37,100 nucleotides of DNA from Rhodospirillales bacterium (GCA_947470575.1 CANITX010000009.1:1-37100), one strand, 5' to 3'; positions 1,850 to 16,024 are shown, numbered from the stretch's first letter. The notes: a model not told the origin generated them from the letters alone. Numbers and translations are program-made.

Positions 1850-3940
1850 ATGTCGCCGCCTCAGCCTCCCTTTGCCGATCGCCGTCCCGTCACCGAGACC
1901 CGTCATGGCCACGTTCGCGTCGATCCCTATGCCTGGCTGCGCGACGAGAACTGGCAACAGGTGATGAAGGATCCAGCCACGTTGACGGCGGACATCCGCG
2001 CCTATCTGGCGGCGGAAAATGCCTATGCCGACAGCATCCTGGCTCCGACCCGACCGTTGCAGAAGCGTCTGTTCCAGGAGATGAAGGGGCGTATCAAGGA
2101 AGAGGATTCCTCCGTCCCTCAGCCCGATGGGCCCTATAGCTACCACGTCCGCTATCGTGCCGGCGGGCAGCATCCCTTATTTTGCCGCGTCGGTCCGGAT
2201 GGCATCGAACGGGTCATGATCGACGGCGACCATGAAGCCGCGGGCCGTGCCTTCCTGCGCTTCGCCGGCTGCGAACATTCCCACGATCACCGGCTGATCG
2301 CCTACGCGGCCGATTTTATGGGCGCCGAGTTCTACACCATTCGCTTTCGCGATCCGGAGTCGGGTATCGATCTGGACGACCTCATTCCCGATGCTCAGGG
2401 CGAGGTGGCCTGGGCCAACGACGGACGCACCTTGTTCTACGTCCGCCTCGACGCCAATCATCGGGCGATCGGCGTCTACCGGCATCGGGTCGGTCAGCCG
2501 GCGGCGTACGATGTCCTGGTCCATGCCCAGCCCGATACCGGATTTTATCTCAACGTCCGATTGACGGAGAGCCGGCGCTTCATCGTCGCCAACATCCACG
2601 ATCACGATAGTTCCGCGCAATTGTTGATCGATGCTGACTGGCCGGAATCCGATCCCCGTCTCGTGGCGCCGTTGGAACTGGGCGTCCGCTATACGGTCAG
2701 CCATCGCGGTGGCGATCTGCTGATCCATACCAATGCCGACGGCGCCGAGGATTTCAAACTGGTGATGGCGCCTGTCGATTCACCGGGGCGGGAAAATTGG
2801 CGCGATCTGATACCCCACCGGCCGGGCAATTATCTGCGCTCGATCCTGGTCTTTGCCGACCATCTGGTTCGACTGGAAAGGGTGGAAGGGCAACCGCGCA
2901 TCGTCGTGCGGCGTTTCGCCGACGGGCAGGAGCACGCCGTCGACTTCGCCGAAGAAGCTTACGACCTTGGCATCGTGCCCGGCTACGAGTTCGCGACGAC
3001 CACGCTGCGCTTCACCTATTCCTCGCCGACGACGCCGCAGCGGACCTACGACTACGATATGGAGAGCCGGCAGCGGATTCTGCGCAAAGAGCAGGAAATC
3101 CCCTCTGGCCACGATCCGGCCGCCTATGTCACCCGGCGCCTGTTCGCCGACAGCCACGACGGTGCGCGCGTGCCGATCACCGTACTGTACCGTGCCGATA
3201 CGCCCCTCGACGGTTCGGCGCCGTTGCTGTTGTACGGATACGGTTCCTATGGCCTGTCGATTCCGGCGGCTTTCGTCACCAACCGGCTGAGCCTGGTGGA
3301 CCGCGGGTTCATTTACGCCATCGCCCACATCCGTGGCGGCACCGAAATGGGCTGGAACTGGTATCGCGATGGCAAGCTGCTGAAGAAGCAAAATACCTTC
3401 CTCGATTTCATCGCGGCTGCTGAACGGTTGATCGCCGCCGGCTATACGCAGTCTGGCAATATCGCCTGCCACGGCGGTAGCGCCGGTGGGCTGCTGATCG
3501 GTGCAGTCATCAACAAGCGCCCGGACCTGTTCAAGGCGGCAATCGCCGAAGTACCGTTTGTCGACGTGCTCAGCACCATCTGCGACCCAAGCCTGCCGCT
3601 GACGCCGCCGGAATGGCCGGAATGGGGAAACCCCATCGAAAACCCCGCCGATTACGCCAACATTCTGTCCTATTCGCCCTACGACAACGTCGAGGCTCAG
3701 GATTATCCGCACATTTTCGCGCTCGGCGGACTGACGGACCCGCGCGTCACCTATTGGGAGCCGGCCAAATGGGTGGCCAAGCTGCGCGCCGTCAAAACGG
3801 ATGACAATCTGTTGCTCCTGCGCATCAACATGGAGGCGGGCCACGCCGGCGCCGCCGGGCGTTTCGACCGCCTGGAGGAAGTGGCCTTGACCTATGCCTT
3901 CGTTCTGATGGTCTTTGGCAAAGCCGCAGAGGGCGAATGA
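1850..3940 (+). CDS. ptrB: Oligopeptidase B (prolyl oligopeptidase family S9A)
   Basis: The product is 696 aa, the normal length for oligopeptidase B, a cytoplasmic serine peptidase that cuts short peptides after Arg or Lys. The N-terminal half is the beta-propeller that filters substrates by size and the C-terminal part is the alpha/beta hydrolase. The triad is visible as S544 (GGSAGG), D630 (GGLTDPRV) and H665 (MEAGHAGAAGR). The acidic segment after the active site (TICDPSLPLTPPEWPEWGNP) is typical of this family rather than of prolyl endopeptidase. No signal peptide is seen. AGAAGGA stands upstream of the ATG. It is divergent from the enolase-superfamily gene and followed 88 bp later by zur. 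Confidence 0.92.
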   Translation: MSPPQPPFADRRPVTETRHGHVRVDPYAWLRDENWQQVMKDPATLTADIRAYLAAENAYADSILAPTRPLQKRLFQEMKGRIKEEDSSVPQPDGPYSYHVRYRAGGQHPLFCRVGPDGIERVMIDGDHEAAGRAFLRFAGCEHSHDHRLIAYAADFMGAEFYTIRFRDPESGIDLDDLIPDAQGEVAWANDGRTLFYVRLDANHRAIGVYRHRVGQPAAYDVLVHAQPDTGFYLNVRLTESRRFIVANIHDHDSSAQLLIDADWPESDPRLVAPLELGVRYTVSHRGGDLLIHTNADGAEDFKLVMAPVDSPGRENWRDLIPHRPGNYLRSILVFADHLVRLERVEGQPRIVVRRFADGQEHAVDFAEEAYDLGIVPGYEFATTTLRFTYSSPTTPQRTYDYDMESRQRILRKEQEIPSGHDPAAYVTRRLFADSHDGARVPITVLYRADTPLDGSAPLLLYGYGSYGLSIPAAFVTNRLSLVDRGFIYAIAHIRGGTEMGWNWYRDGKLLKKQNTFLDFIAAAERLIAAGYTQSGNIACHGGSAGGLLIGAVINKRPDLFKAAIAEVPFVDVLSTICDPSLPLTPPEWPEWGNPIENPADYANILSYSPYDNVEAQDYPHIFALGGLTDPRVTYWEPAKWVAKLRAVKTDDNLLLLRINMEAGHAGAAGRFDRLEEVALTYAFVLMVFGKAAEGE

Positions 3941-3953
3941 GCCTCGACCTCAA

Positions 3954-4028
3954 GGTGGGTCACTTGATATAATATTACACTTTTCCGATGGAAGACCGGC
4001 CGATCCCGCGGACCCCAAAGGCGACCCG
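3954..4028 (+). promoter_or_regulatory. Candidate zur-znuCB promoter with AT-rich operator
   Basis: A perfect -10 hexamer TATAAT lies at 3968-3973, overlapping the short palindrome TAATATTA (3970-3977). The AT-rich word stands out in a GC-rich setting. Known Zur operators in alphaproteobacteria are AT-rich palindromes over the promoter, so autoregulation by Zur is a reasonable inference. The flanks are not symmetric and no good -35 is seen, so the exact operator is uncertain. Confidence 0.45.
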
Positions 4029-4520
4029 ATGAGCATTTCCAAACAAGCGTTCGACCGGCACGACCACAGCGCCTGCGTCGTCAGCGCGCTGGATGCCGCT
4101 GAACTGTTGTGCGCTCGCCATGGGGCCCGTCTGACCGGTCGGCGGCGGCGGGTTCTGGAACTGGTCTGGCGGTCTCACCAGGCGGTCAAGGCCTATGACC
4201 TGCTGGCGCAGATGGCGCGCGAGGACCCTAGCGTGAAGCCGCCTACCGTGTATCGGGCTCTCGATTTCCTGATCGCTCAAGGCTTGGTGCATCGCATCGA
4301 AAGCCTGAATGCTTTCGTCGGCTGCGTGCGGCCGGGCCAAGCGCACCACGAGCAATTCCTGATCTGCGACGATTGCGGCACCGTGCAGGAGGTGGAGGTA
4401 CCCGAGGTCGGGCGCTCTTTGACCAAGGCTGCCACCAGCGCCGGCTTCCAGGCGGACCATCAGACGATCGAGGTTCACGGCCGCTGCGATACCTGTTGCC
4501 AGCCCGCTTCTCGACGATGA
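4029..4520 (+). CDS. zur: Fur-family zinc uptake regulator Zur
   Basis: The product is 163 aa. Zur represses zinc importer genes when zinc is sufficient. A winged-helix DNA-binding domain fills residues 35-92, with the recognition helix around PPTVYRALDFL (71-81). The dimerization and metal domain follows: HH at 106-107, then two Cys pairs, C113/C116 (ICDDC) and C153/C156, which form the structural zinc site of Fur proteins. Zur rather than Fur is inferred from the znuC and znuB genes that follow directly. The ATG at 4029 is chosen because upstream codons in frame run back into ptrB. The stop overlaps the znuC start (ATGA at 4517-4520), implying translational coupling. Confidence 0.88.
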   Translation: MSISKQAFDRHDHSACVVSALDAAELLCARHGARLTGRRRRVLELVWRSHQAVKAYDLLAQMAREDPSVKPPTVYRALDFLIAQGLVHRIESLNAFVGCVRPGQAHHEQFLICDDCGTVQEVEVPEVGRSLTKAATSAGFQADHQTIEVHGRCDTCCQPASRR

Positions 4521-5332
4521 ACCCCGACGGATCGTCAGTCTCGCCCGCCATCGAAGCGCGCGGCGTCGCCTTTCATGCCGGCGGGCGTAGCATTCTGCAA
4601 AATGTCGATATGGCCGTCGCTGCGGGAGAGATCGTTACCCTGATCGGCCCGAACGGTTCGGGAAAAACGACCCTGATTCGCATTTTGTTGGATGTGTTGA
4701 AACCCGATAGCGGCGAGGTCATCCGACGACCGGGATTGACGGTCGGCTATGTGCCGCAGAAGGTCGCCATCGATCCCGCCCTGCCGTTGACCGTCGGGCG
4801 GTTTCTCCGGCTGGGCGGCAAGGCTGGGGACAGCGATGTCGCCGCCGTTCTTGCCGAGGTCGGCCTGCCCGCCGTGGCCGGGCGCATGCTGGCCGGTCTA
4901 TCGGGCGGCGAGTTTCAGCGGGTGCTTCTCGGCCGGGCGCTGCTGCGGCGTCCCGACCTGTTGATTCTCGACGAGCCGACCCAAGGCGTCGACGTCGGCG
5001 GCCAACTCGATCTATATGCCCTGATCGCCCGCGTCCGCCGCCAGCGAGGTTGCGCCATCCTGCTGGTTTCCCATGACCTGCACCTGGTGATGGCTGCCAC
5101 CGACCGGGTGATTTGCCTGAATGGCCATGTGTGCTGCCATGGACACCCGGAAGCGGTAACCGGCGATCCCGCCTATATCGCCCTGTTCGGACCGCGGGCG
5201 GCGGAGTTGGCGGTCTATAGCCACGATCATGACCATGGCCACGACCTGGGCGGCCGCGTGCTCGGCGATCGCGAGCATCCGCACCATCCTCACCCGCACC
5301 ATGCTCCCCCGCATCGTCACGACGCCGCATGA
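4517..5332 (+). CDS. znuC: Zinc ABC transporter ATP-binding protein ZnuC
   Basis: The product is 271 aa, the ATPase that powers high-affinity Zn2+ import through ZnuB. The Walker A motif is GPNGSGKTT (44-52), the Q-loop is near Q81, the ABC signature is LSGGE (128-132), Walker B is LLILDEP (148-154) and the switch His is H186. The C-terminal tail (236-268) carries 12 His residues in HDH, HPHH and HPHPHH clusters, a plausible zinc-binding region. The start at 4517 overlaps the zur stop and the gene ends by overlapping znuB (ATGA at 5329-5332), so zur-znuC-znuB form one unit. The periplasmic binding protein ZnuA is not in the window. Confidence 0.92.
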   Translation: MNPDGSSVSPAIEARGVAFHAGGRSILQNVDMAVAAGEIVTLIGPNGSGKTTLIRILLDVLKPDSGEVIRRPGLTVGYVPQKVAIDPALPLTVGRFLRLGGKAGDSDVAAVLAEVGLPAVAGRMLAGLSGGEFQRVLLGRALLRRPDLLILDEPTQGVDVGGQLDLYALIARVRRQRGCAILLVSHDLHLVMAATDRVICLNGHVCCHGHPEAVTGDPAYIALFGPRAAELAVYSHDHDHGHDLGGRVLGDREHPHHPHPHHAPPHRHDAA

Positions 5333-6129
5333 TCGAAGACTTCGTCCTGCGCGCGCTCATTGGCGGTTTGGGGGTCGCTCTGGTGGCGGGGCCGCTCGGC
5401 TGCTTCATTGTCTGGCGCCGGATGGCCTATTTCGGCGATTCGGTGGCGCATAGTGCCGTGTTGGGCGTGGCGCTGGGTATCGCGCTTGGCATCGATCTCG
5501 GCGTTGGCATCCTGATCGTCTGCGTGCTTTTCGCCTTGATGTTGGCGCTCCTGCAGCACCAGCATCGGCTGGCGACCGATACCTTGCTCGGCATCCTGTC
5601 GCACACCGCCTTGGCTATCGGCATGGTCGCCGTCGGCCTGATGGATTGGTTGCGGGTGGACCTGCTCGGCTATCTGTTCGGCGATGTGCTGTCGGTGACC
5701 TGGGCCGACATCGGCCGCATCTGGGGTGGCGGCGCGGTGGCGCTGGCGGTGCTGGGGTTCATCTGGCGGCCGCTGCTGTCGATGACCGTGCACGAGGAAA
5801 TGGCCCGCGCCGAAGGCACGCCGGTGGCTGCGATACGTGTCGTCTTCATGCTGTTGATCGCGCTGGTCATCGCGGTTGCCATGAAAATCGTCGGTATCCT
5901 GCTGATCACCTCGCTGCTCATCGTCCCCGCCGCCGCGGCGCGCCGCTTCGCCCGCACGCCGGAAGCCATGGCCGTGGGCGCCGCGCTGATCGGCGCCCTT
6001 GCGGTCGTCGGCGGTTTGGCCGCTTCCCTGAACTGGGATACCCCGCCGGGGCCGTCGGTGGTGGTCGTCGCCTCGACGCTGTTCATCGTCAGCTTGGCTC
6101 TCGGTGGGTTGAGCCGGACCGACCCTTAA
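5329..6129 (+). CDS. znuB: Zinc ABC transporter permease ZnuB
   Basis: The product is 266 aa, an integral inner-membrane permease of the ABC-3 family. It has seven to nine hydrophobic segments, and the family-typical N-terminal stretch ALVAGPLGCFIVWRRMAYFG is followed by DSVAHSAVLGVALG. It forms the channel driven by ZnuC. The gene starts inside the znuC stop and ends by sharing four bases with the convergent nitroreductase gene (6126-6129), leaving no room for a separate terminator. Manganese or iron permeases of the same family look similar; the Zur neighbour favours zinc. Confidence 0.9.
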   Translation: MIEDFVLRALIGGLGVALVAGPLGCFIVWRRMAYFGDSVAHSAVLGVALGIALGIDLGVGILIVCVLFALMLALLQHQHRLATDTLLGILSHTALAIGMVAVGLMDWLRVDLLGYLFGDVLSVTWADIGRIWGGGAVALAVLGFIWRPLLSMTVHEEMARAEGTPVAAIRVVFMLLIALVIAVAMKIVGILLITSLLIVPAAAARRFARTPEAMAVGAALIGALAVVGGLAASLNWDTPPGPSVVVVASTLFIVSLALGGLSRTDP

Positions 6130-7001
6130 TCCGGGTGAATGCCCTGCTTGGCCAAAAAGGTGCGGAAGGCGGGGCGTTCGGGCAGCGACAACTGGCGAGT
6201 GACGTTTTCCGACCACGGGCAGCAGTCGAGCGCGCCGTATGTATCGATGTGGCGCTGCTTTTCGGGGGTCAGCGGCTGACGGGCGTGGCGCCGGGCATCG
6301 TAAGCGGTGATCGCCGCCTCCAGCTTGGAATCGTCGTAGCGGTCGCGATGCACCACCACCTCTGGCGGTAGGCGCATCGAGGTGCGCTTCTCGTCCGTTT
6401 CCGGTTCGGCAGGCCAACCGACCGCCATGCCGGCGACCGGGAATACGCCCTCGGGCAGGCCCAAGACCTTGGCGGTATTCTCGATCTGGAAGCGCACGGC
6501 GCTCAGTCCGCAACAGCCGAGTCCCACGGACTCGGCTGCCAACAGGAAGGTCTCGAAGGCGATGGCCGCATCCACCGCGGCATTCATGAATGTATCCGTG
6601 TTGTCGTTGGCGTAAGCGTGGCCACGTATCGCCGCCAGCCGCCGGATGCGTCGCACGTCGCCGCAGAAGACCAGCAGCACCGGCGCTTTCGAAGGCCAGT
6701 CCAGGTGCTTGCCCTGTCTGCCCAGTTCGCGGCGTATCGCCGGGTCCTGCACGACGATGATCGAATACTGCTGCAGATCCGACTTGGCCGGTGCCGATTG
6801 GGCGCAGGCGAGCAGCACGGTCAGCAGTTCGTCGGGCACCGGATCGGGCTTGAAGGTGCGTTGCGAGCGTCGCGACAGAATGCGCGCCAGCGGTCCTTCA
6901 GCCGGCATGCCGGCGCCGGCCGTTGTCGGCAGGCCGAAGCGCCGTTCGATCAGATCGGCAATGGTGCGTGGTTCGGTCATCGGGGTCAAAGCCTCAGGCA
7001 T
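6126..7001 (-). CDS. Nitroreductase family protein (FMN-dependent NAD(P)H oxidoreductase)
   Basis: The product is up to 291 aa. The nitroreductase fold is indicated by the FMN phosphate-binding segment ILSRRSQRTF (41-50), the central AVDAAIAFETFLLAAESVGLG region and the later GLPEGVFPVAGMAVGWPAE motif, which resembles the NfsA/Frp group. Such flavoenzymes reduce nitro compounds, quinones or free flavin; the natural substrate cannot be told. The ATG at 7001 overlaps the end of the upstream oxidoreductase gene by 8 bp. A second ATG at 6980 (MTEPRT) has a weak GAGG upstream and could be the true start. The two minus-strand genes probably share a transcript. Confidence 0.82.
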   Translation of the reverse strand: MPEALTPMTEPRTIADLIERRFGLPTTAGAGMPAEGPLARILSRRSQRTFKPDPVPDELLTVLLACAQSAPAKSDLQQYSIIVVQDPAIRRELGRQGKHLDWPSKAPVLLVFCGDVRRIRRLAAIRGHAYANDNTDTFMNAAVDAAIAFETFLLAAESVGLGCCGLSAVRFQIENTAKVLGLPEGVFPVAGMAVGWPAEPETDEKRTSMRLPPEVVVHRDRYDDSKLEAAITAYDARRHARQPLTPEKQRHIDTYGALDCCPWSENVTRQLSLPERPAFRTFLAKQGIHPD

Positions 7002-8280
7002 GCGGTGAGGGCGGCAGGTGGCCGCCGGTAAAGTCGCGATCGGGACGATAGGCGGAAATGTCGATGTTGGGTGTCGCGCCGGCGGCGAGTTGGCTGAGGA
7101 TGCGCCCCGTGACCGCGCCCAAGGTCAGGCCGATATGGCCGTGGCCGAACCCGAACAGCACGTTGCGGAAGGCTGGCGAGAAACCGATCACCGGCAGTGA
7201 ATCGGGCATCGACGGCCGTGAGCCGACCCAGCGGCTGGCGACGTCGAGCTTGAGACCGCGCACGATGTTGGTCGCCTCCTTAATAATGCGAAAGGCGCGC
7301 TCGTGATTTGGCTTGGCGTCGATGGCGGCAAACTCGGACATGCTCGACATCCGCAAGCCGTGCTCCATCGGCGAAATCGCGATGAAGCGGTCGTTGGAGG
7401 ACAAGTGGATTTTCGGCAAGGTGCCCGGATCGGTGATCATGATGTGATAGCCGCGTTCCGAAGCCAGCGGCACATCGCAGCCAAGCTCGCTCGCGAACTT
7501 GCGCGACCAGGCGCCTGCGGCGATGACGACCAGGTCGCAGGGCAGGGTACCTTGGTCGGTGATGATGCCGGTCGGACCCTCGGCACCGAGGTTGAATCCT
7601 TTCACCTCCGCCGTCATCAGCTTGCCCCCGGCGGCGACGAAGGCTTCGCTGATCAGCTTGGTCATGCGCATCGGGTTGATGCAGTCCTGGACGTCGGGGT
7701 ACCACATGCCGCCGACGACGTTGTCCGACAGGGCGGGTTCCATTTCGCGCAGCTCGTCGCCGGTCTTCACTTCCACGCGGATGCCGCGCTTGCGCCGCAG
7801 CTCGACGGCGTACATGCCCTTGGCGAGCTTGTCCTTGTTTTCATAGGTGTGGATCAGGCCCCGGGGTTCGACCATTTCCGAGTGGCCGATCTGGTGCAGA
7901 AGGTCGGCCAGCGCATCGCCGGCATGGGCCAGAAGATTGGCGCGGGCGTCGGAGATGGACTCGACCCGGCTCCGCTTGGTCGCCATGGCGAAACGGATGA
8001 ACCAGGGAATGGACTTCGGCAGATGGCTCAGCCGCGCGGTCAGGGGATGCATAGGATCGAGGAACATCCCCGCAGCTTTCCACGCCATGCCCGGCATGCC
8101 GAGCGGCGGTACTGAACCCAATCCGATGCTGCCGGCGTTACCGAGCGAAGCGCCTTCGCCCGGCACGTTCTTTTCGATCAGGGTAACGTCAAAGCCGGCG
8201 CGGCGCATCCACCAGGCGGTGCACGACCCGACGATGCCGGCACCGATGACGTGAACGCGACGGGACGTGGATTCGGACAT
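6994..8280 (-). CDS. FAD-dependent oxidoreductase, D-amino acid dehydrogenase (DadA) type
   Basis: The product is 428 aa. The N-terminal Rossmann motif VIGAGIVGS (11-19, G13-x-G15-x-x-G18) binds FAD, and the middle and C-terminal parts follow the DAO fold (VVIAAGAWS, then GFGHGHIGLTLGAVTGRIL near the C-terminus, typical of DadA). DadA-type enzymes oxidatively deaminate D-amino acids to 2-oxo acids at the inner membrane and pass electrons to quinones. GGGGAGGAA lies upstream of the ATG. The nitroreductase gene overlaps its 3' end. Related glycine/sarcosine-type oxidases remain possible. Nearby racemase and D-2-hydroxyacid dehydrogenase genes hint at D-amino-acid or D-hydroxy-acid metabolism, but they are on the opposite strand. 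Confidence 0.82.
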   Translation of the reverse strand: MSESTSRRVHVIGAGIVGSCTAWWMRRAGFDVTLIEKNVPGEGASLGNAGSIGLGSVPPLGMPGMAWKAAGMFLDPMHPLTARLSHLPKSIPWFIRFAMATKRSRVESISDARANLLAHAGDALADLLHQIGHSEMVEPRGLIHTYENKDKLAKGMYAVELRRKRGIRVEVKTGDELREMEPALSDNVVGGMWYPDVQDCINPMRMTKLISEAFVAAGGKLMTAEVKGFNLGAEGPTGIITDQGTLPCDLVVIAAGAWSRKFASELGCDVPLASERGYHIMITDPGTLPKIHLSSNDRFIAISPMEHGLRMSSMSEFAAIDAKPNHERAFRIIKEATNIVRGLKLDVASRWVGSRPSMPDSLPVIGFSPAFRNVLFGFGHGHIGLTLGAVTGRILSQLAAGATPNIDISAYRPDRDFTGGHLPPSPHA

Positions 8281-8382: not shown

Positions 8383-8799
8383 CTATTGGCTTTCCTCGCC
8401 GGTCAGCCGCTTCGACCACATCAGGCCCAGGGTCGCACCCTTGGCCCGGGGCAGAAATAGGGCCATGCCGGCGGCGGCGATCAGCGGCCACAGGGTCATT
8501 GATACGGAGAGGGGAGGGGAAAATGTCTGCTCGCTCCACAGCGCAAACGGCACCACGACATGCCCGACAACCAAGATGGTCAGCCACGGCGCGATATCGT
8601 CGGTTCGGAAATGACCGAAAGGTTCGCCGCAATGACTGCAAGCGGGGATCGGCGTAAGGTAGCCGCGCAACAGCGCCCCCTCGCCGCACGCCGGGCAGCG
8701 CAGCCGCAGTCCGCGCGCGATCGCCGGCCACGTCTGCCGCTCCAACGGGCGGCTCCCTTCGTCGTGGTCGGGCGGCAAGGTCGGGTCGATGATCGGCAT
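8383..8799 (-). CDS. DUF983 family zinc-ribbon membrane protein
   Basis: The product is 138 aa. A zinc ribbon is formed by two CxxC pairs, C35/C38 (CPACGEG) and C54/C57 (CSHCGEPF), followed by two hydrophobic segments (about 72-89 and 101-115). This order, with an RCPxCGEG start, is the signature of DUF983, a family common in alphaproteobacteria whose function is not known. AAGGGGGAC lies just before the ATG. It is transcribed away from the racemase-family gene, with a 130-bp divergent spacer. Confidence 0.85.
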   Translation of the reverse strand: MPIIDPTLPPDHDEGSRPLERQTWPAIARGLRLRCPACGEGALLRGYLTPIPACSHCGEPFGHFRTDDIAPWLTILVVGHVVVPFALWSEQTFSPPLSVSMTLWPLIAAAGMALFLPRAKGATLGLMWSKRLTGEESQ

Positions 8800-8862
8800 G
8801 TCCCCCTTATGGTATGGTCAATGACGGCTGACAAGGCTGTTCGCACGCGGACGCGAACCCGC

Positions 8863-8892
8863 TTGCCACGCTTTGCCGCATCGACCTAGGCT
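8863..8892 (+). promoter_or_regulatory. Candidate promoter of the racemase/dehydrogenase/SDR operon
   Basis: TTGCCA (8863-8868) and TAGGCT (8887-8892) are separated by 18 bp and would start transcription about 30 bp before the racemase-family ATG. Agreement with sigma-70 hexamers is moderate. No operator palindrome was recognised. Confidence 0.35.
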
Positions 8893-8929
8893 GAGGCCTG
8901 CACGTCCCCCATACGGAAAGCCAACAGTC

Positions 8930-9712
8930 ATGCATGACATCGAGATATCCGCATTGCCGGCAAGCCGGGGGTCCGGCGACCGAATTGCCCACGGCGGCAA
9001 GTCGATCTACGGCGCGCGCATCGGCGTGCTGATGCTGGACACCGATTTTCCGCGCGTGCCTGGCGATATCGGCAATGCCCAGACCTGGCCGTTTCCCATG
9101 ATGTTTCGCGTCGTGCGCGGCGCCACCGCCCGCAAGACGGTCGACCAGCGCTCGCCCGAGGCATTGCAGGCTTTCATCGCCGCCGGCAAGGAACTGGTGG
9201 CCGATGGCGCCGAGGGTTTGACCACCAGCTGCGGCTTCCTGACCCTGTACCAGAAGGAACTGTCGGCCGCCTGCGGCGTACCGGTCGCGGCCTCGTCGCT
9301 GATGCAGGTGCCGATGGTCGACTGCTTGCTGCCGCCGGGCAAGCGTGCCGGCATCCTGACCATCGACGCCCGCCGGATAACGCCGGAGCATTTGTCGGCG
9401 GCGGGCATCGCGCCGGATACGCCCTTGATGGGCTGCGAGAACGGCGTCGAGTTCCACGTCTTCACGCAGCGCGGCGACGGCATCCTCGATTGCGCCTTGG
9501 CCGAGCGCGACATCCTGGAGGCCGGCGCCGAACTGGTCCGCCGTCATCCGGAGGTCGGCGCCATCGTCATGGAATGCACCAACATGCCGCCCTATGCCGC
9601 CGCGCTCAGTGCCCATGTCGGCTTGCCCGTCTATACGATCTACAGCTTCCTGCTCTGGTTCCAGGCGGGGCTGGCGCCGCAAAGCTTCGGCCATCCCGGC
9701 AGCAGCCGATGA
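8930..9712 (+). CDS. Aspartate/glutamate racemase family protein
   Basis: The product is 260 aa. This superfamily (Asp/Glu racemase, hydantoin racemase, maleate isomerase, arylmalonate decarboxylase) uses two cysteines in two pseudo-symmetric lobes as acid and base, with no cofactor. Both are visible: C101 in TTSCGF and C216 in MECTNM. The spacing and flanking motifs fit the broad family rather than a specific member, so the substrate is open; a 2-amino, 2-hydroxy or malonate-type acid is likely. The ATG at 8930 is preferred to an in-frame upstream start at 8873 because GGAAAG precedes it and the upstream residues are Arg/Pro-rich. Its stop overlaps the start of the next gene (ATGA at 9709-9712). 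Confidence 0.82.
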   Translation: MHDIEISALPASRGSGDRIAHGGKSIYGARIGVLMLDTDFPRVPGDIGNAQTWPFPMMFRVVRGATARKTVDQRSPEALQAFIAAGKELVADGAEGLTTSCGFLTLYQKELSAACGVPVAASSLMQVPMVDCLLPPGKRAGILTIDARRITPEHLSAAGIAPDTPLMGCENGVEFHVFTQRGDGILDCALAERDILEAGAELVRRHPEVGAIVMECTNMPPYAAALSAHVGLPVYTIYSFLLWFQAGLAPQSFGHPGSSR

Positions 9713-10677
9713 CCGAGAGCGCCACGGCGACCGTCGCCTATGTCCTGTCGCGGGCCAACCCGCCGCAGCTCGGGCCGACGTTGGAACGCCACTTCCGCGT
9801 CCATGGGTTGCCCGATACCGCCGATATCGCCGATTCGGTCGCCGGCTTCGCCGACACGGTACAGGCCCTGGTCACGACGACGGTGGCCGGCGCCGACCGC
9901 CGGCTGATCGAGGCGCTGCCGAACCTGGAGTTGATCGTCTGCCTGGGCGGCCACGTCGACCGCATCGACCGGCAGGCGGCCGCGGCGCGGCATATCCCGC
10001 TCACTAATACGCCCAACGTCTCGGCCCCCGATGTCGCCGACCTCGCCATCGCCCTGATGCTGGGCATCGCCCGGCGGGTCTGCGAAAGCGACCGCTTCGT
10101 GCGCGCCGGGCGCTGGAAAAAAAGCCCTATGCCGTTCGGCCGCCGGGTCAACGGCAAGCGGCTTGGCATCGTCGGCTTGGGTAACATCGGCCGCATCGTC
10201 GCCCGCCGGGCCGAAGGCTTCGACATGCAGATCGCCTACTATGGCCGGGGACCCAAGGCGGGTGTGCCCTATCGCTTCTACGACGATCTGGCAACGATGG
10301 CGGCCGAAGTGGATTTCCTGACGCTGCACTGCCAGTCGGGACCGGAAACCTGCCGCCTGATCGATGCCCGGGTGCTCAAGGCCCTCGGACCGGAGGGCTT
10401 TCTGATCAACGCGGCGCGCGGTGAAGTGGTCGACGAAAAAGCCCTGATCCAGGCGCTGCGCGAACGCACCATCGCCGGCGCCGGCCTCGATGTCTTCGAG
10501 AACGAACCCAACATCTCGACGGAATTCATGGACCTCGACAACGTCGTCGTGCAGGCCCACCACGGCGCCTATACGGTCGAGACCAAGCAGATCATGACCG
10601 ACCTGGCCTTGGCCAACCTGCAGGCGCACTTTGCCGGTAAGCCGCTGGTTACGCCGGTAGCGGTTGGCGGGCACTGA
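9709..10677 (+). CDS. D-isomer-specific 2-hydroxyacid dehydrogenase
   Basis: The product is 322 aa, predicted to interconvert 2-oxo acids and D-2-hydroxy acids with NAD(P)H. The Rossmann motif is GLGNIG (156-161). The catalytic residues are R237 (NAARGEV), E266 (FENEP) and the His of QAHHG (H284 or H285). YYGRG (178-182) after the second strand suggests NADPH use, as in hydroxypyruvate/hydroxyphenylpyruvate reductases, but this is inference. It is translationally coupled to the upstream racemase-family gene by a 4-bp overlap. A 90-bp gap follows before the first SDR gene. The pairing suggests that one enzyme sets or consumes the configuration at C2 of a shared substrate. Confidence 0.87.
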   Translation: MTESATATVAYVLSRANPPQLGPTLERHFRVHGLPDTADIADSVAGFADTVQALVTTTVAGADRRLIEALPNLELIVCLGGHVDRIDRQAAAARHIPLTNTPNVSAPDVADLAIALMLGIARRVCESDRFVRAGRWKKSPMPFGRRVNGKRLGIVGLGNIGRIVARRAEGFDMQIAYYGRGPKAGVPYRFYDDLATMAAEVDFLTLHCQSGPETCRLIDARVLKALGPEGFLINAARGEVVDEKALIQALRERTIAGAGLDVFENEPNISTEFMDLDNVVVQAHHGAYTVETKQIMTDLALANLQAHFAGKPLVTPVAVGGH

Positions 10678-10705
10678 TGTCAGCCCACGGTCGGGCGATG
10701 ATGCT

Positions 10706-10767
10706 ATAGTCGGCGGCGACCGGATGGAACGTGCAACCACATCCGGCGCCAACAGGGAGGAGCCGTC
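10706..10767 (+). promoter_or_regulatory. Spacer before the SDR array, with a -10-like element and strong RBS
   Basis: The 90-bp gap before the first SDR contains TATAGT at 10706-10711, a good -10, but no matching -35 at the right distance. GGGAGGAG lies just before the SDR ATG. Either the array has its own weak or activated promoter here, or it is read through from the racemase/dehydrogenase pair. Confidence 0.3.
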
Positions 10768-11550
10768 ATGCACTGCCGTATGGACGGACGTGTCGCGCTG
10801 GTCACTGGCGGCAGCCGGGGTATCGGGCGCGCCATTGTCGAGACCTTCGCCCGGGCCGGGGCCGAAGTCGCCGTTTTCGCGCGCCGGCCGGACGTGCTGG
10901 AGCAGTCGTGCAAGGAAATGGCCGAGGCGACCGGAAAAAGAATCCTCGGTTATGCCGGCGACGTCGGCAAGGCAGCCGACTGCAACGCGGCATTCGCCAA
11001 GGCGGTGGTCGATTTCGGGCGCATCGACGTGCTGGTCAACAACGCCGGCCAGCATATCCGCGGCCCGTTCCTGGAGAATACCGACGAACTCTGGCAGCAG
11101 GATTTCGACAACAAGGTGATGGCCGCGATCCGCCTTGCCCGCCTCGCCATACCCGGCATGCAGCAGCGCAAGTGGGGCCGTATCCTCAATGTACTGAGCT
11201 ACCCGGCGAAGGCGCCGCAGGCCGGCGGCTCGCCGACCCAGGTCCAGCGCGCCACCGGCATGGCGCTGACCAAGGTGCTGGCCAGCGAATTCGCCCCCGA
11301 CAACATCCTGGTCAACGCCTTGCTCACCGGCAACATCGTCACCGACCAGATCGCCGGCCGCTACCAGCGCGCCAACATGGATATCTCGTTCGAACAGCAC
11401 GTCGCCAACACCGGCAAGGCGTTGCCGATGCGGCGCATGGGGACGACCCAGGAATATGCCAACATGGCCTGCTTCCTGGCCTCGGACGCCGGTTCGTATA
11501 TCACCGGCACGGCCATCAATGTCGACGGCGGGTCCTGCCCGGTCGTCTAA
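10768..11550 (+). CDS. SDR family oxidoreductase, array copy 1 (tetrad-divergent)
   Basis: The product is 260 aa with a short-chain dehydrogenase/reductase Rossmann fold: cofactor motif TGGSRGIG (13-20), ARR after strand 2 (38-40, favouring NADP) and NNAG (91-94). The catalytic tetrad is altered. An ungapped alignment to FabG-like enzymes puts K116 at the Asn, S144 at or next to the Ser, T157 at the Tyr and R161 at the Lys. A Lys-x-Pro (148-150) before the active-site region is shared by all four copies. This is the most diverged copy: active-site loop LSYPAKAPQAGGSPTQVQR and lid NMDISFEQHVANTGKALP. Cys3 and Cys257 are common to all copies. Whether it is an active reductase, an isomerase-like enzyme or a non-catalytic subunit is open. 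Confidence 0.85.
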   Translation: MHCRMDGRVALVTGGSRGIGRAIVETFARAGAEVAVFARRPDVLEQSCKEMAEATGKRILGYAGDVGKAADCNAAFAKAVVDFGRIDVLVNNAGQHIRGPFLENTDELWQQDFDNKVMAAIRLARLAIPGMQQRKWGRILNVLSYPAKAPQAGGSPTQVQRATGMALTKVLASEFAPDNILVNALLTGNIVTDQIAGRYQRANMDISFEQHVANTGKALPMRRMGTTQEYANMACFLASDAGSYITGTAINVDGGSCPVV

Positions 11551-11579
11551 ATCGCAGAACAACAAACGGAGGAAACATC

Positions 11580-12362
11580 ATGGAATGCCTCATGGACGGA
11601 CGTGTCGCCCTGATCACCGGCGGCAGCCGGGGATTGGGCCGCGCAATGGCTGAAACCTTCGCCAAGGCCGGCGCCCAGGTGGCCATCGTCGCCCGCCGCC
11701 CCGATGTGCTGAAGGAGACCAGCGACGAGCTGACCAAGGCCAGCGGCTCGCGGGTCCAGGGCTATGCCGGCGACGTCGGTAAGGCAGCCGAATGCAAGGC
11801 GGTCTTCGACAAGATCGTCGCCGACTTCGGCCGCGTCGACGTTCTCGTCAACAACGCCGGGACGTCCGTGCGTGGACCCTTCCTGGGCCACAGCGACGAT
11901 GCTTGGCAGCAGGACTTCGACCTTAAGGTGATGGCGGCGATCCGTCTGGCGCGCCTGGCTATCCCCGGCATGCAGCAGCGCAAGTGGGGTCGCATCATCA
12001 ATATTCTCAACATCGGCGCCAAGGCGCCCAAGGCCCAGGGCGCGCCGACCCAGGTTTCGCGGGCCACCGGCATGGCGCTGACCAAGGTGCTGGCCAGCGA
12101 ATTCGCCCCCGACAACATCCTGGTGAACTGCCTGATGACCGGCAGCATCGTCACCGACCAGGTGGCCAACCGCTATAAGAAGGAACAGCCGAACATCTCC
12201 TTCGACGAATTCGTCGCCAACGTCGGCAAGGGCATCCCCATGGGCCGCATGGGCACGGCGCAGGAATACGCCAACATGGCCTGCTTCCTCGCCTCCGACG
12301 CCGGCTCTTACATCACCGGCACGGCGATCAATATCGACGGCGGCGCCTGTCCGGTCGTCTGA
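11580..12362 (+). CDS. SDR family oxidoreductase, array copy 2 (tetrad-divergent)
   Basis: The product is 260 aa and aligns to the other array members without a gap. The cofactor motif is TGGSRGLG (13-20) and NNAG is at 91-94. At the classical tetrad positions it has K116, N144 (Asn instead of Ser, in NILNIG), T157 and R161, so none of the four classical residues remains. The pocket loop reads IGAKAPKAQGAPTQVSR and the lid region QPNISFDEFVANVGKGIP. The gene follows copy 1 by 29 bp, with ACGGAGGAAACATC directly before the ATG; the same layout recurs before copies 3 and 4. The open frame continues upstream through copy 1 in another register, so the start is fixed by the RBS and by homology to its neighbours. 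Confidence 0.85.
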   Translation: MECLMDGRVALITGGSRGLGRAMAETFAKAGAQVAIVARRPDVLKETSDELTKASGSRVQGYAGDVGKAAECKAVFDKIVADFGRVDVLVNNAGTSVRGPFLGHSDDAWQQDFDLKVMAAIRLARLAIPGMQQRKWGRIINILNIGAKAPKAQGAPTQVSRATGMALTKVLASEFAPDNILVNCLMTGSIVTDQVANRYKKEQPNISFDEFVANVGKGIPMGRMGTAQEYANMACFLASDAGSYITGTAINIDGGACPVV

Positions 12363-12390
12363 GCCGCACAGCAGCAAGGAGGAGAATGTC

Positions 12391-13173
12391 ATGGAATGCC
12401 GCATGGACGGCCGCGTTGCTCTGATCACCGGGGGCAGCCGCGGCCTAGGTAAGGCGATGGCCGAAACCTTCGCCAAGGCCGGCGCTCAGGTCGCCATTGT
12501 CGCCCGCCGCCCGGATGTGCTCGCGGAGGCAGCCGCCGAGCTGACCAAGGCGAGCAACTCGAAAGTGATGGGTTTTGCCGGCGACGTCGGCAAGGCCGCC
12601 GACTGCCAGTCGGTTTTCGACAAGGCGATTGCCGAGTTCGGTCGCGTCGATGTGCTGGTCAACAACGCCGGCACCTCGCTGAGCGGTCCCTTCCTGCAAC
12701 AGACCGACGAGATCTGGGCTCAGGATCACGACTTGAAGGTGATGGCGGCGATCCGGCTCTGTCGCCTCGCCATCCCCGGCATGCAACAACGCAAGTGGGG
12801 ACGGATCATCAACATCCTGAGCAGCAACGCCAAGGCGCCCAATCCTAAAGGCGCACCGACCAACGTTTCGCGCGCCACTGGCATGGCGCTGACCAAGGTG
12901 CTGGCCAGCGAATTCGCACCCGACAACATCCTGGTCAATGGCCTGATGACCGGCAACATCGTCACCGACCAGGTCGCCAACCGCTATAAGAAGGCCAAGC
13001 CGGATATGACCTTCGAGCAATATTGCGCCGAAGTCGGCAGGAAGATCCCCATGCGCCGCATGGGTACCGCCCAGGAATACGCCAACATGGCCTGCTTCTT
13101 GGCCTCCGACGCCGGTTCCTACATCACCGGCACCGCCATCAACGTCGACGGCGGCCGTTGTCCGGTGGTCTGA
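12391..13173 (+). CDS. SDR family oxidoreductase, array copy 3 (tetrad-divergent)
   Basis: The product is 260 aa, with cofactor motif TGGSRGLG (13-20) and NNAG (91-94). The tetrad positions hold K116, S144, T157 and R161. It is closest to copy 4: by eye about 23 of 260 residues differ, concentrated at 140-153 (active-site loop, SSNAKAPNPKG here) and 210-217 (substrate lid, QYCAEVGR here). It is 28 bp after copy 2 with AAGGAGGAG as RBS. The conservation of the intergenic layout shows that each duplication unit included its own ribosome-binding site. Confidence 0.85.
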   Translation: MECRMDGRVALITGGSRGLGKAMAETFAKAGAQVAIVARRPDVLAEAAAELTKASNSKVMGFAGDVGKAADCQSVFDKAIAEFGRVDVLVNNAGTSLSGPFLQQTDEIWAQDHDLKVMAAIRLCRLAIPGMQQRKWGRIINILSSNAKAPNPKGAPTNVSRATGMALTKVLASEFAPDNILVNGLMTGNIVTDQVANRYKKAKPDMTFEQYCAEVGRKIPMRRMGTAQEYANMACFLASDAGSYITGTAINVDGGRCPVV

Positions 13174-13202
13174 GACGAACTGCAACAAGAGAGGATAACA
13201 TC

Positions 13203-13985
13203 ATGGAATGCCGCATGGACGGCCGTGTCGCTCTGATCACCGGAGCTAGTCGCGGTCTCGGCAAGGCGATGGCCGAAACCTTCGCCAAGGCTGGCGCTCA
13301 GGTCGCCATCGTCGCCCGCCGTCCCGACGTGCTTAAGGAGGCCGCCGCCGAGTTGACCAAGGCGAGCAACTCGAAGGTCGTCGGCTTTGCCGGCGACGTC
13401 GGCAAGGCTACCGACTGCCAGTCGATCTTCGACAAGGTTGTTGCCGAGTTCGGCCGGGTCGACGTTCTGGTCAACAACGCCGGCACTTCGCTGCGCGGCC
13501 CGTTTCTGCAACAGACCGACGAGATCTGGGCGCAGGATTACGACCTCAAGGTGATGGCGGCGATCCGGCTCTGTCGCCTCGTCATCCCCGGCATGCAGCA
13601 GCGCAAGTGGGGCCGCATTCTCAATGTCCTGAGCGGCGGCGCCAAGGCACCGCGCGCCCAAGGCGCGCCGACCAATGTCTCGCGCGCTACCGGCATGGCG
13701 TTGACCAAGGTGCTGGCCAGCGAATTCGCCCCCGACAACATTTTGGTCAATGGCCTGATGACCGGCAACATCGTCACCGACCAGGTGGCCAACCGCTATA
13801 AGAAGGCCAAGCCGGACATGACCTTCGAGGCGTTCGTTGCCGAGTCCGGCAAGAAGATTCCCATGCGCCGCATGGGCACTGCCCAGGAATACGCCAACAT
13901 GGCCTGCTTCCTGGCCTCCGATGCCGGCTCCTACATCACCGGCACGGCGATCAATGTCGACGGCGGCAACTGTCCGGTGGTGTGA
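13203..13985 (+). CDS. SDR family oxidoreductase, array copy 4 (tetrad-divergent)
   Basis: The product is 260 aa, the last member of the array. It has TGASRGLG (13-20, A15 instead of Gly), NNAG (91-94), K116, S144, T157, R161 and the shared GG-x-CPVV C-terminus. The pocket loop reads SGGAKAPRAQGAPTNVSR and the lid PDMTFEAFVAESGKKIP. The ATG at 13203 follows GAGAGGATAACATC. A longer in-frame start at 13023 lies inside copy 3 and is rejected. A strong bidirectional terminator follows 21 bp after the stop, so this is the end of the operon. Confidence 0.85.
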   Translation: MECRMDGRVALITGASRGLGKAMAETFAKAGAQVAIVARRPDVLKEAAAELTKASNSKVVGFAGDVGKATDCQSIFDKVVAEFGRVDVLVNNAGTSLRGPFLQQTDEIWAQDYDLKVMAAIRLCRLVIPGMQQRKWGRILNVLSGGAKAPRAQGAPTNVSRATGMALTKVLASEFAPDNILVNGLMTGNIVTDQVANRYKKAKPDMTFEAFVAESGKKIPMRRMGTAQEYANMACFLASDAGSYITGTAINVDGGNCPVV

Positions 13986-14006
13986 CGGCGAAGATCGAAT
14001 AAAAGA

Positions 14007-14037
14007 AAAGGCGGGGACCTAACCGGTCCCCGCCTTT
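14007..14037. terminator. Bidirectional intrinsic terminator between the SDR array and phoX
   Basis: A perfect 13-bp stem (14007-14019 AAAGGCGGGGACC paired with 14025-14037) has a 5-nt loop. It is flanked by an A-run on the left and T residues on the right, so it can end both the plus-strand SDR operon and the minus-strand phoX transcript. Confidence 0.9.
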
Positions 14038-14062
14038 CTCGTTGTGTGGATGGCTGCGACGA

Positions 14063-16024
14063 TCAGGCCTTCGCCATCTTTATGCTGGTGGGATCCGCCG
14101 TCAGATAACCCACGGCGGCGCCGAAGCGTTGTTTGTAATTGGCGTTGACCAACGGCTCAAGGGTTGCCTGGACCTTGCCATGCAACGCGGGAATCCAGTC
14201 GCCGGGGTGCTGGAAGTTGCTCATGATGTAGGTCCAGCCGTTGAGATCGTCGACCACGTGCAACCCGGTGGCTTCGGCGCCTACCGGCATCGACATGACG
14301 CGCGTCAGCGCCTTGGTGTCGATGTTGTAGGCCCAGAGGAAATTGTTCACGTGGGTGCTGCTGTCCTCGCCGATAAACAACGTTCGCATTTTCTCGGAGA
14401 ACTTCAGGTTGTCGGGGTTGCCGATCTTGTCGGGATTGGCAAGATTGCCCAGCGCGTCGGCGGCGATATCCTCGCCCATGAGAAGGGCCTTGGTCTGGAC
14501 CGGTACCCACTCGCTGTTGATAGCGGCACCATCCGTGTCCTTTTGGCCACCGGCGAGGTTGTGGGCCATGACGCCGCCTGCCTTCAATGTCTTGTCGAGG
14601 GCGATGTTGCTGGCTTCCGTCCAGCCCTTGCCGCCCTTGATCATGGAATCTTGGATGTTTTGTAGCGCCGAATAGGCGACCTTGTCCTTGATGTTGACGG
14701 TCGTGCCTTCCAGCTTGGTAAAGCCCATGCTGCCGCCCTTGATGTTGGCGTAGCGGTGGGTTTCGAGGAAGGCTGCGGCCTTTTCCATGCCGGGCTTGAG
14801 CTTCACCCAGTTGGCGTTGCCGTCGCAGAACATTGCCGTGTAGCTGGGATCGCCCGGATCGGCGGTGGCGACGGTCATGATGTCGGTCGGCTTAAGGGTA
14901 TTGGCTAGCTTCTCGATTTCATCGCTGGTGGCATGGCCGAGCTTGACCCAGCTCAGCTTGACGCCGGGGGCGGCGGGATCGACGGAAAGGCCAGGGGCAA
15001 GCTTGGCGACATAGAGGGTACCGGCCGAAAGGTCCTTCTCCTTGTCGGCGACGAACATGAAGAAGCCGCCGTTGGTGTAGTCGTCGCCCATGATCGCGGT
15101 ACGGTTGTCGGGCATCACCTGGATCAGTTCATGCGAGATGCGACCCAGACTGTAGTGCTTCTTGACCGTCCCGGTGCCATCCGGATGGACCGTAACTTCG
15201 GGCATGATTCCGTAGTGATACGGATTGGCCTTAGTCTCGTCGCCATAAAGGTTCTTGCTGAAGGCTTTGAATTGCTTGTCCGCTTTCGAACCCGGCGCGG
15301 CGAACGCGTCCGGCTCGTACTCTTCGCTGGACAGGTGGGTATTCCACGGCGACAGGCTGGAACCGCAGGCGATCCACAGGCCGTGCACCTTGGAGGTATC
15401 GACGTTGTGGTATTTGACGAGGTTGAGCTTACCGGTTGCCTGATCCTGGTCCAGCGTTAGCACGGCGATCGGCGACGGCAGCAGGCCGTATGTGTCGGCG
15501 CCGCCTTGGTCACGCGAGGTGTATTCGAACTGGACGACGGCGAAGACCGCCTTGCCCTTGATCTTCGCGACCGTCGGTTTCGGCAGTGCCAGCAGCGACG
15601 TGCCGTCGGGCGAATCCGAAAAAATCTGGCGTTCCTTGCCGGCGACCGACTTGTCGATGATCGGCTTGTTGTCGATATCGACGTAACCGCCACTGAGAAT
15701 CGTGCCGCCCTTGCCGTCGGGGACCATGTCTCCGGTGATGAAGAATGGCTGATAGGAGAGCTTGTAGCTGTGGGAGGATTTGTCGCTGAAAGCGACCTTG
15801 AAACTCGATGCCACGGTCGTTTTCGCCATGGCGGCGGCGTCGGTGAGCGACGGGGCGGCCATCGGCGTGAACTCGGTGGACACGACTTTTATCGCCTCGG
15901 CGCCGAAGGCAACCTTGCCCGATAGCAAGGACGAGGATGCGAGGACGCCGAACGGCAAAACCATCGGAATCCCACCGAAGAGCCTCAGCGTCTCTCGGCG
16001 GGAGAGTTGCGGCAGATTGGACAT
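14063..16024 (-). CDS. phoX: PhoX-family alkaline phosphatase (DUF839), Tat-exported
   Basis: The product is 653 aa. PhoX enzymes are monomeric Ca/Fe-dependent alkaline phosphatases that release phosphate from phosphoesters outside the cytoplasm. A twin-arginine signal SRRETLRLF (8-16) is followed by a hydrophobic stretch and a likely cleavage near AFGAEA (39-44). The body matches the PhoX/DUF839 family, with segments such as WIACGSSLSPWNTHLSSEEY, GRISHELIQVMPDNRTAIMGDD and TLFIGEDSSTHVNNFLWAYN. The acidic residues E and D in these segments are where the family binds metals. GGAG lies 7 nt before the ATG. A three-repeat Pho box lies upstream, so induction by PhoB under phosphate limitation is expected. 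Confidence 0.9.
   Translation of the reverse strand: MSNLPQLSRRETLRLFGGIPMVLPFGVLASSSLLSGKVAFGAEAIKVVSTEFTPMAAPSLTDAAAMAKTTVASSFKVAFSDKSSHSYKLSYQPFFITGDMVPDGKGGTILSGGYVDIDNKPIIDKSVAGKERQIFSDSPDGTSLLALPKPTVAKIKGKAVFAVVQFEYTSRDQGGADTYGLLPSPIAVLTLDQDQATGKLNLVKYHNVDTSKVHGLWIACGSSLSPWNTHLSSEEYEPDAFAAPGSKADKQFKAFSKNLYGDETKANPYHYGIMPEVTVHPDGTGTVKKHYSLGRISHELIQVMPDNRTAIMGDDYTNGGFFMFVADKEKDLSAGTLYVAKLAPGLSVDPAAPGVKLSWVKLGHATSDEIEKLANTLKPTDIMTVATADPGDPSYTAMFCDGNANWVKLKPGMEKAAAFLETHRYANIKGGSMGFTKLEGTTVNIKDKVAYSALQNIQDSMIKGGKGWTEASNIALDKTLKAGGVMAHNLAGGQKDTDGAAINSEWVPVQTKALLMGEDIAADALGNLANPDKIGNPDNLKFSEKMRTLFIGEDSSTHVNNFLWAYNIDTKALTRVMSMPVGAEATGLHVVDDLNGWTYIMSNFQHPGDWIPALHGKVQATLEPLVNANYKQRFGAAVGYLTADPTSIKMAKA

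Follow-up and report, generated by a model that had tools for sequence, protein, structure and literature searches.

What does a short-chain dehydrogenase/reductase (SDR) do once its classical catalytic tyrosine and lysine have been exchanged, and why should a genome keep four such genes side by side? The question is raised by a stretch of 37,100 nucleotides from a Rhodospirillales bacterium (GCA_947470575.1, CANITX010000009.1:1-37100; hereafter the window), where four SDR genes lie head-to-tail on the plus strand at 10768-13985. Each starts with ATG and encodes 260 amino acids; the copies align without gaps, with amino-acid identity of 72-91% and nucleotide identity of 76-87%, and the intergenic gaps of 28-29 nt carry purine-rich ribosome-binding sites. 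An earlier description made from the sequence alone (the original prediction) had pointed out this gap-free array, its intact cofactor motifs, K116, T157, R161 and Lys148-x-Pro150 in all four copies and Asn144 in copy 2, all of which the open reading frames (ORFs) and the alignment bore out. We read the products as four functional enzymes that use NADP(H) to reduce unsaturated or 2-oxo carboxylic acids at a Tyr-less Lys/Arg site and whose substrate ranges have diverged. This reading proceeds by analogy, with the reductase activity, the substrates and the role of each residue being what we infer, and we give it a rough probability of 0.45.

The copies are SDRs by fold and by cofactor site. All four exceed the Pfam cut-off for adh_short/adh_short_C2 (PF13561/PF00106; copies 1 and 2 score 170-179 bits where 27 are required), and fold matches reached a template-modelling (TM) score of up to 0.92. 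The cofactor motifs of the superfamily, TGxxxGxG and NNAG, are found in every copy, the glycine motif reading TGGSRG in copies 1-3 and TGASRG in copy 4. None of the NCBIfam SDR families shown reached its cut-off with any copy, the best being PRK07231 with 186-202 bits against 215. The classical Asn-Ser-Tyr-Lys tetrad is absent from all four: K116, K148-A-P150, T157 and R161 are common to them, and position 144 is S, N, S and S in gene order. In an AlphaFold2 model of copy 2 (predicted local distance difference test, pLDDT, 85; predicted TM score, pTM, 0.86), residue 116 lies in helix 106-134 (helix E), 144 ends strand 137-143, and 157 and 161 sit in the first turns of helix 155-178. On this model, 116, 144, 157 and 161 occupy the sites of the classical Asn, Ser, Tyr and Lys, respectively. 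The classical Pro-Gly motif after beta-6 is also replaced, by Thr187-Gly188, a change that the original prediction had not recorded.

Profile searches covered samples of 297 genomes from the order, 385 from the class and 399 from the phylum, about 1,000 in all, and returned close relatives in 47, 48 and 6 genomes, respectively (the window's own genome counted); all six from the phylum sample belong to the same class as the window genome. Relatives were also present on a Massilia plasmid and on Bradyrhizobium plasmids, and the gene is nearly always single-copy. Across 58 relatives outside the array, selected at E <= 1e-60 throughout the Alphaproteobacteria (42-63% identity), K116, T157, R161 and Q194 each occur in 58 of 58, W109 and D112 are invariant too, position 188 is always G and 187 is V, T or I but never P. 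Position 148 is K in 55 and R in 3, and 150 is mostly P; the protein from the Bradyrhizobium plasmid departs a little from this pattern (KAG, PSALSR). The 66 rows of the subfamily form one group (100/99) in a maximum-likelihood tree. Because this signature is invariant in the relatives, the alignments identify an unnamed, mainly alphaproteobacterial SDR subfamily with its own catalytic set; the active site has not simply been lost in these copies. The original prediction had described the exchange for the four copies, but it is a property of a class-wide subfamily. The view of Asn144 in copy 2 as an additional change had the direction inverted. Position 144 is N in 42 of the relatives, A in 7, I in 5, S in 3 and T in 1; Asn144, the commonest state, is thus probably ancestral and Ser144 of copies 1, 3 and 4 a secondary change, and on this distribution Ser at 144 is plainly not required in the subfamily.

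An intact Tyr-x-x-x-Lys hidden elsewhere in the protein would offer a simpler account of these replacements, and none was found. The only literal YxxxK is YKKAK at 199-203 of copies 3 and 4, which lies in the lid after beta-6 and not in helix F; it is missing from copies 1 and 2, and YxxxK strings occur in just 4 of the 58 relatives, at scattered positions. A displaced tetrad is ruled out on these grounds. The invariance of the site bears equally on the idea that the products are non-catalytic NADP-binding or regulatory proteins, acting as scaffolds, sensors or inactive partners. Such a role would agree with the disappearance of the classical Tyr and Lys beside retained cofactor motifs, but K116, T157, R161, Q194, W109, D112 and K/R148 are held in the 58 relatives in an enzyme-like pattern and copy-specific pocket residues are fixed between species, so that we regard it as improbable.

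The array is present in both genomes examined for the genus, with identical gene order and the same 5' flank; the second (L001) was assembled from a metagenome, and its record bears the title Asaia bogorensis. An assembly artefact is ruled out by this shared four-gene order. The tree groups the eight array genes in a single clade (100/99), within which every copy is the partner of its counterpart from the other species. This topology indicates three duplications of one gene, all older than the separation of the two species; on this phylogenetic evidence the array arose once, within the genus, by in-place amplification of a single-copy gene. Ratios of non-synonymous to synonymous substitution (dN/dS) of 0.06-0.12 between orthologues rule out pseudogenes or relaxed constraint and place all four copies under strong purifying selection, with none decaying. 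The suggestion that some copies are structural is therefore unsupported, and most likely each of the four genes yields a working enzyme.

A second array of the subfamily was found neither in the order, class and phylum samples nor among the examined members of two near families; the large searches scored only the best six to eight candidates per genome, which is sufficient to reveal any array. Plasmid-borne arrays were likewise absent, the plasmid records carrying single copies only. The four-gene array of this subfamily has so far been seen only in the genus. The original prediction had considered it unusual, and the search results are in accord.

How far the copies have diverged in function can be read from where they differ. 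At thirty-five sites each copy keeps its own residue in both species while the copies differ from one another, and sites 97, 113, 145, 146, 151, 211 and 256 show three or more residues among the copies. The segments 95-105, 144-155 and 183-215, which we take to be substrate-pocket segments of SDRs, hold 5 of these 7 sites (p 0.003) and 15 of the 35 (p 0.0003), values that are indicative only because the segments were picked from general SDR knowledge. In these segments 36-42% of positions are identical in all four copies, against 100% in 161-182 of helix F, 89% in 117-134 of helix E and 92% in the C-terminal part 220-255; helices E and F and the C-terminal part are presumably the tetramer interfaces of SDRs. 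Segment 144-155 has 57% identity between paralogues and 92% between orthologues, whereas in segment 161-182 paralogues are 100% and orthologues 94% identical. This pattern fits copies that have probably undergone substrate diversification on a common scaffold.

Part of the uniformity of helix F may stem from exchange between copies. Copies 1 and 2 share an identical stretch of 62 nt (codons 162-182), a run reached in 0 of 2000 shuffles, and in this part of the gene the other copies show weaker runs of common sequence; no identical runs of 35 nt or more were found between the paralogues of L001. Moreover, synonymous divergence between paralogues of the window genome (0.48-0.63) is lower than that to the orthologues (0.62-0.81). 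The long run together with the lower divergence suggests gene conversion in the window genome, and the 62-nt stretch is a probable conversion tract. Both observations would also suit a pure dosage effect, in which four copies of the same function raise expression and gene conversion keeps them alike; the copy-specific pocket residues, conserved between species as seen in 144-155, speak against it, and we find this explanation rather unlikely. A more speculative extension, to which we attach little probability, is that the copies form mixed SDR tetramers, conversion keeping the interface helices alike while selection keeps four pockets apart, which would yield a combinatorial set of Lys/Thr/Arg enzymes.

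The chemistry proposed here takes its lead from AerF of Microcystis aeruginosa (PDB 6jh7/6jha/6jhb) and BacG/YwfH of Bacillus subtilis (PDB 3u49/3u4c/3u4d), the nearest characterised relatives. Like the array products, they have the SDR fold, Lys116, Lys148-x-Pro150 and no catalytic Tyr; their residue 144 is Gly instead of Ser. They differ in having Ser/Asn157, where the array has Thr, and in being single genes of antibiotic or peptide biosynthesis, with no array. Among solved structures AerF is the joint-best match by profile and the second by fold, and it is the nearest outgroup of the subfamily in the maximum-likelihood tree. We take both to be NADPH-dependent reductases of conjugated C=C bonds in hydroxyphenylpyruvate-type acids. 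By analogy, the substrate would be an unsaturated or 2-oxo carboxylic acid whose C=C bond (or carbonyl) takes up hydride from NADPH; its carboxylate would be bound, and the enolate stabilised, by the Lys116/Lys148/Arg161 cluster, and a proton would come from Lys148, Thr157 or water in place of Tyr, as is presumed for AerF and BacG. The catalytic set would thus comprise Lys116, Lys148 (rarely Arg), Thr157 and Arg161, along with the invariant Gln194. Reduction of acids by NADPH is favoured since a Lys116/Lys148/Arg161 cluster near the nicotinamide would be well suited to hold a carboxylate or an enolate; furthermore, Arg17 and Arg39 suggest a preference for NADP(H). Of the two reactions, we lean slightly towards C=C rather than ketone reduction. 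Experiments on isopiperitenone reductase provide a precedent for ene reduction by an SDR without Tyr: the enzyme has Glu in its place, and exchanging Tyr for Glu in a plant SDR switches it between the keto- and ene-reducing modes (PMC4988501).

Several points weigh against this assignment. AerF and BacG carry Asn161, where the array and the 58 relatives have Arg, and are only about 33% identical. The join to AerF in the tree is weak (98/74, with long branches). The best structural match is a classical ketone reductase, the NADPH-dependent L-sorbose reductase of Gluconobacter frateurii (PDB 3ai1/3ai3; TM 0.92, 37% identity), and a dehydrogenase direction, ketone chemistry and non-redox roles are possible as well. 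The products could accordingly perform ordinary carbonyl chemistry, as 2-/3-oxoacid or sugar-type ketone reductases or alcohol dehydrogenases in which Lys148 or Arg161 replaces Tyr in its acid-base role. The sorbose reductase, near-best also by sequence, and neighbouring genes of the D-2-hydroxyacid dehydrogenase and Ldh_2 families, which handle 2-oxo/2-hydroxy acids, lend this some credit. However, 3ai3 retains an intact Tyr-x-x-x-Lys (YNVTK), so its match is uninformative on the altered site, and the characterised Tyr-less proteins with K116 and K-x-P are, to our general knowledge, C=C reductases; we are doubtful of carbonyl chemistry without dismissing it.

Gene neighbourhoods agree with the reductase assignment in part. 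Genes for the catabolism of hydroxy-, keto- and unsaturated acids occur in the operon of the array and recur in several unrelated neighbourhoods of the subfamily (Ldh_2, D-2-hydroxyacid dehydrogenase, enoyl-CoA hydratase, MmgE/PrpD, FAA hydrolase, HpcH/HpaI aldolase, AMP-binding ligase, enolase-superfamily and TctA genes); on a Bradyrhizobium plasmid the neighbours include ICL/PEP-mutase and LeuCD. A single-copy SDR of family f11 (L114) is abutted by a D-2-hydroxyacid dehydrogenase family gene, and in another family of the order tandem pairs of genes from the Asp/Glu-racemase family that also heads the operon of the array (L104:12184-13763 and L105:10483-12113) lie on the opposite strand, 2-4 kb from the single-copy SDR, with an arginase-family gene adjoining. 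The neighbourhoods are nevertheless heterogeneous, which again counts against the assignment: neighbours differ between families, no one metabolic neighbourhood was found to be conserved, and as several are housekeeping genes (GARS, RsmB/F, ATE) the link to acid catabolism is a trend only. It should be added that in L112 (3496-10200), L113 and L117 the single-copy SDR is flanked by an enoyl-CoA hydratase gene on one side and a FAD_binding_2 gene on the other, and that in L112, annotated with Pfam, two MmgE/PrpD genes stand just upstream; this neighbourhood is a good place to seek the substrate.

In the window, the array is preceded by a racemase-family gene and a D-2-hydroxyacid dehydrogenase-family gene (Table 1). 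The former, with a start near 8930, overlaps the latter by ATGA and is the first gene of a probable operon; 90 nt separate the latter from the array. Co-transcription of the racemase, dehydrogenase and SDR genes is deduced from spacing, since a simple scan of 8700-14200 found no sigma-70-like promoter. Downstream, a hairpin assigned to the minus strand is a likely terminator that could serve both directions; terminator-like sites in the region are not more numerous than in shuffles, and its stem is by far the longest. Together with the racemase-family and D-2-hydroxyacid dehydrogenase-family enzymes, the array products would probably handle a set of related carboxylic acids. In both genomes the operon is preceded by nitroreductase-family and D-amino-acid-dehydrogenase-like (DAO) genes (6126-8280, minus strand, in the window), neighbours that make a link to D-amino-acid or hydroxy-acid metabolism possible.

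Tyr-less SDRs as such are already known; what is new is the class-wide alternative catalytic set and the four-gene array. The divergent K-x-P / S-N-x-x-R branch, to which the original prediction had tentatively assigned the copies, is real: the Burkholderia SDRs 5va8, 5idx/5idy and 5vps (PDB; PRK08339-like) read VKAP...LSNGAR, and relatives from Acidobacteria and Gemmatimonadota show the same kind of site. It shares with the array K148-x-P150, a small hydroxyl residue at 157, Arg161 and the absence of Tyr. The copies do belong to a divergent SDR branch, but they differ from this one: it has Asn116 instead of Lys116, mostly Ser/Thr at 144, where the subfamily has mostly Asn, and a retained Pro-Gly motif, and in the tree its relatives fall outside the subfamily. 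We know of no reaction assigned to it. In the divergent LxxxK protein BcSDR of Burkholderia cenocepacia, Tyr is lost from an otherwise classical-looking SDR, as in the array; it differs in keeping the Lys of YxxxK, Asn and Ser, with Leu where the array has Thr (PMC11614110).

Further tandem SDRs were observed in the window genome (G000). A distinct four-gene array of Tyr-less SDRs lies on the plus strand of contig C64 (L164:1936-5280; ORFs 1936-2745, 2773-3555, 3611-4387 and 4498-5280). It reads VCAAK, LGAAK, LCVAK and LCVAK at the YxxxK site, with Lys kept, and resembles BcSDR (PMC11614110) more than the window array does. On the minus strand, contig C198 carries a tandem pair of the K-x-P / S-N-G-A-R branch (L166:692-2436) and contig C32 three tandem SDRs with intact YVxxK (L165:537-2866). 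Tandem SDR amplification seems to be a habit of this genome.

Table 1. Positions of the array genes, their orthologues and associated features (window coordinates unless prefixed with L001)
Feature	Position	Strand	Details
Asp/Glu/hydantoin-racemase family gene, PRK07475 subfamily	8930..9712	+	Pfam PF01177; NCBIfam NF005679 above cut-off
D-2-hydroxyacid dehydrogenase family gene	9709..10677	+	Pfam PF02826/PF00389; directly 5' of SDR copy 1
SDR copy 1	10768..11550	+	K116, S144, KAP148-150, T157, R161; pocket residues H96, I97, Y145, P146, Q151, H211
62-nt identical stretch, copies 1 and 2	11251..11312	+	codons 162-182, helix F; probable gene-conversion tract
SDR copy 2	11580..12362	+	N144; pocket residues I145, G146, K151, F211
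SDR copy 3	12391..13173	+	S144; pocket residues S145, N146, N151, Y211
SDR copy 4	13203..13985	+	S144; pocket residues G145, G146, R151, F211
14-pair hairpin, T-rich flank	14006..14038	.	between array and convergent PhoX-family gene; likely terminator
Copy 1 orthologue	L001:8001-8783		85% identity, dN/dS 0.115
Copy 2 orthologue	L001:8813-9595		91% identity, dN/dS 0.100
Copy 3 orthologue	L001:9624-10406		93% identity, dN/dS 0.059
Copy 4 orthologue	L001:10434-11216		92% identity, dN/dS 0.072

These data define a class-wide SDR subfamily that is uniformly without the residue thought central to SDR chemistry, and its alternative set of K116, K148, T157, R161 and Q194 is open to point mutation. The array itself is a natural experiment: a single scaffold bears four pockets that have been fixed since before the species separated, and these could reveal what determines the substrates of Tyr-less SDRs. 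If the products are C=C reductases, the AerF/BacG type would reach beyond antibiotic and peptide pathways into ordinary acid catabolism, and the array enzymes would offer flavin-free ene-reductases.

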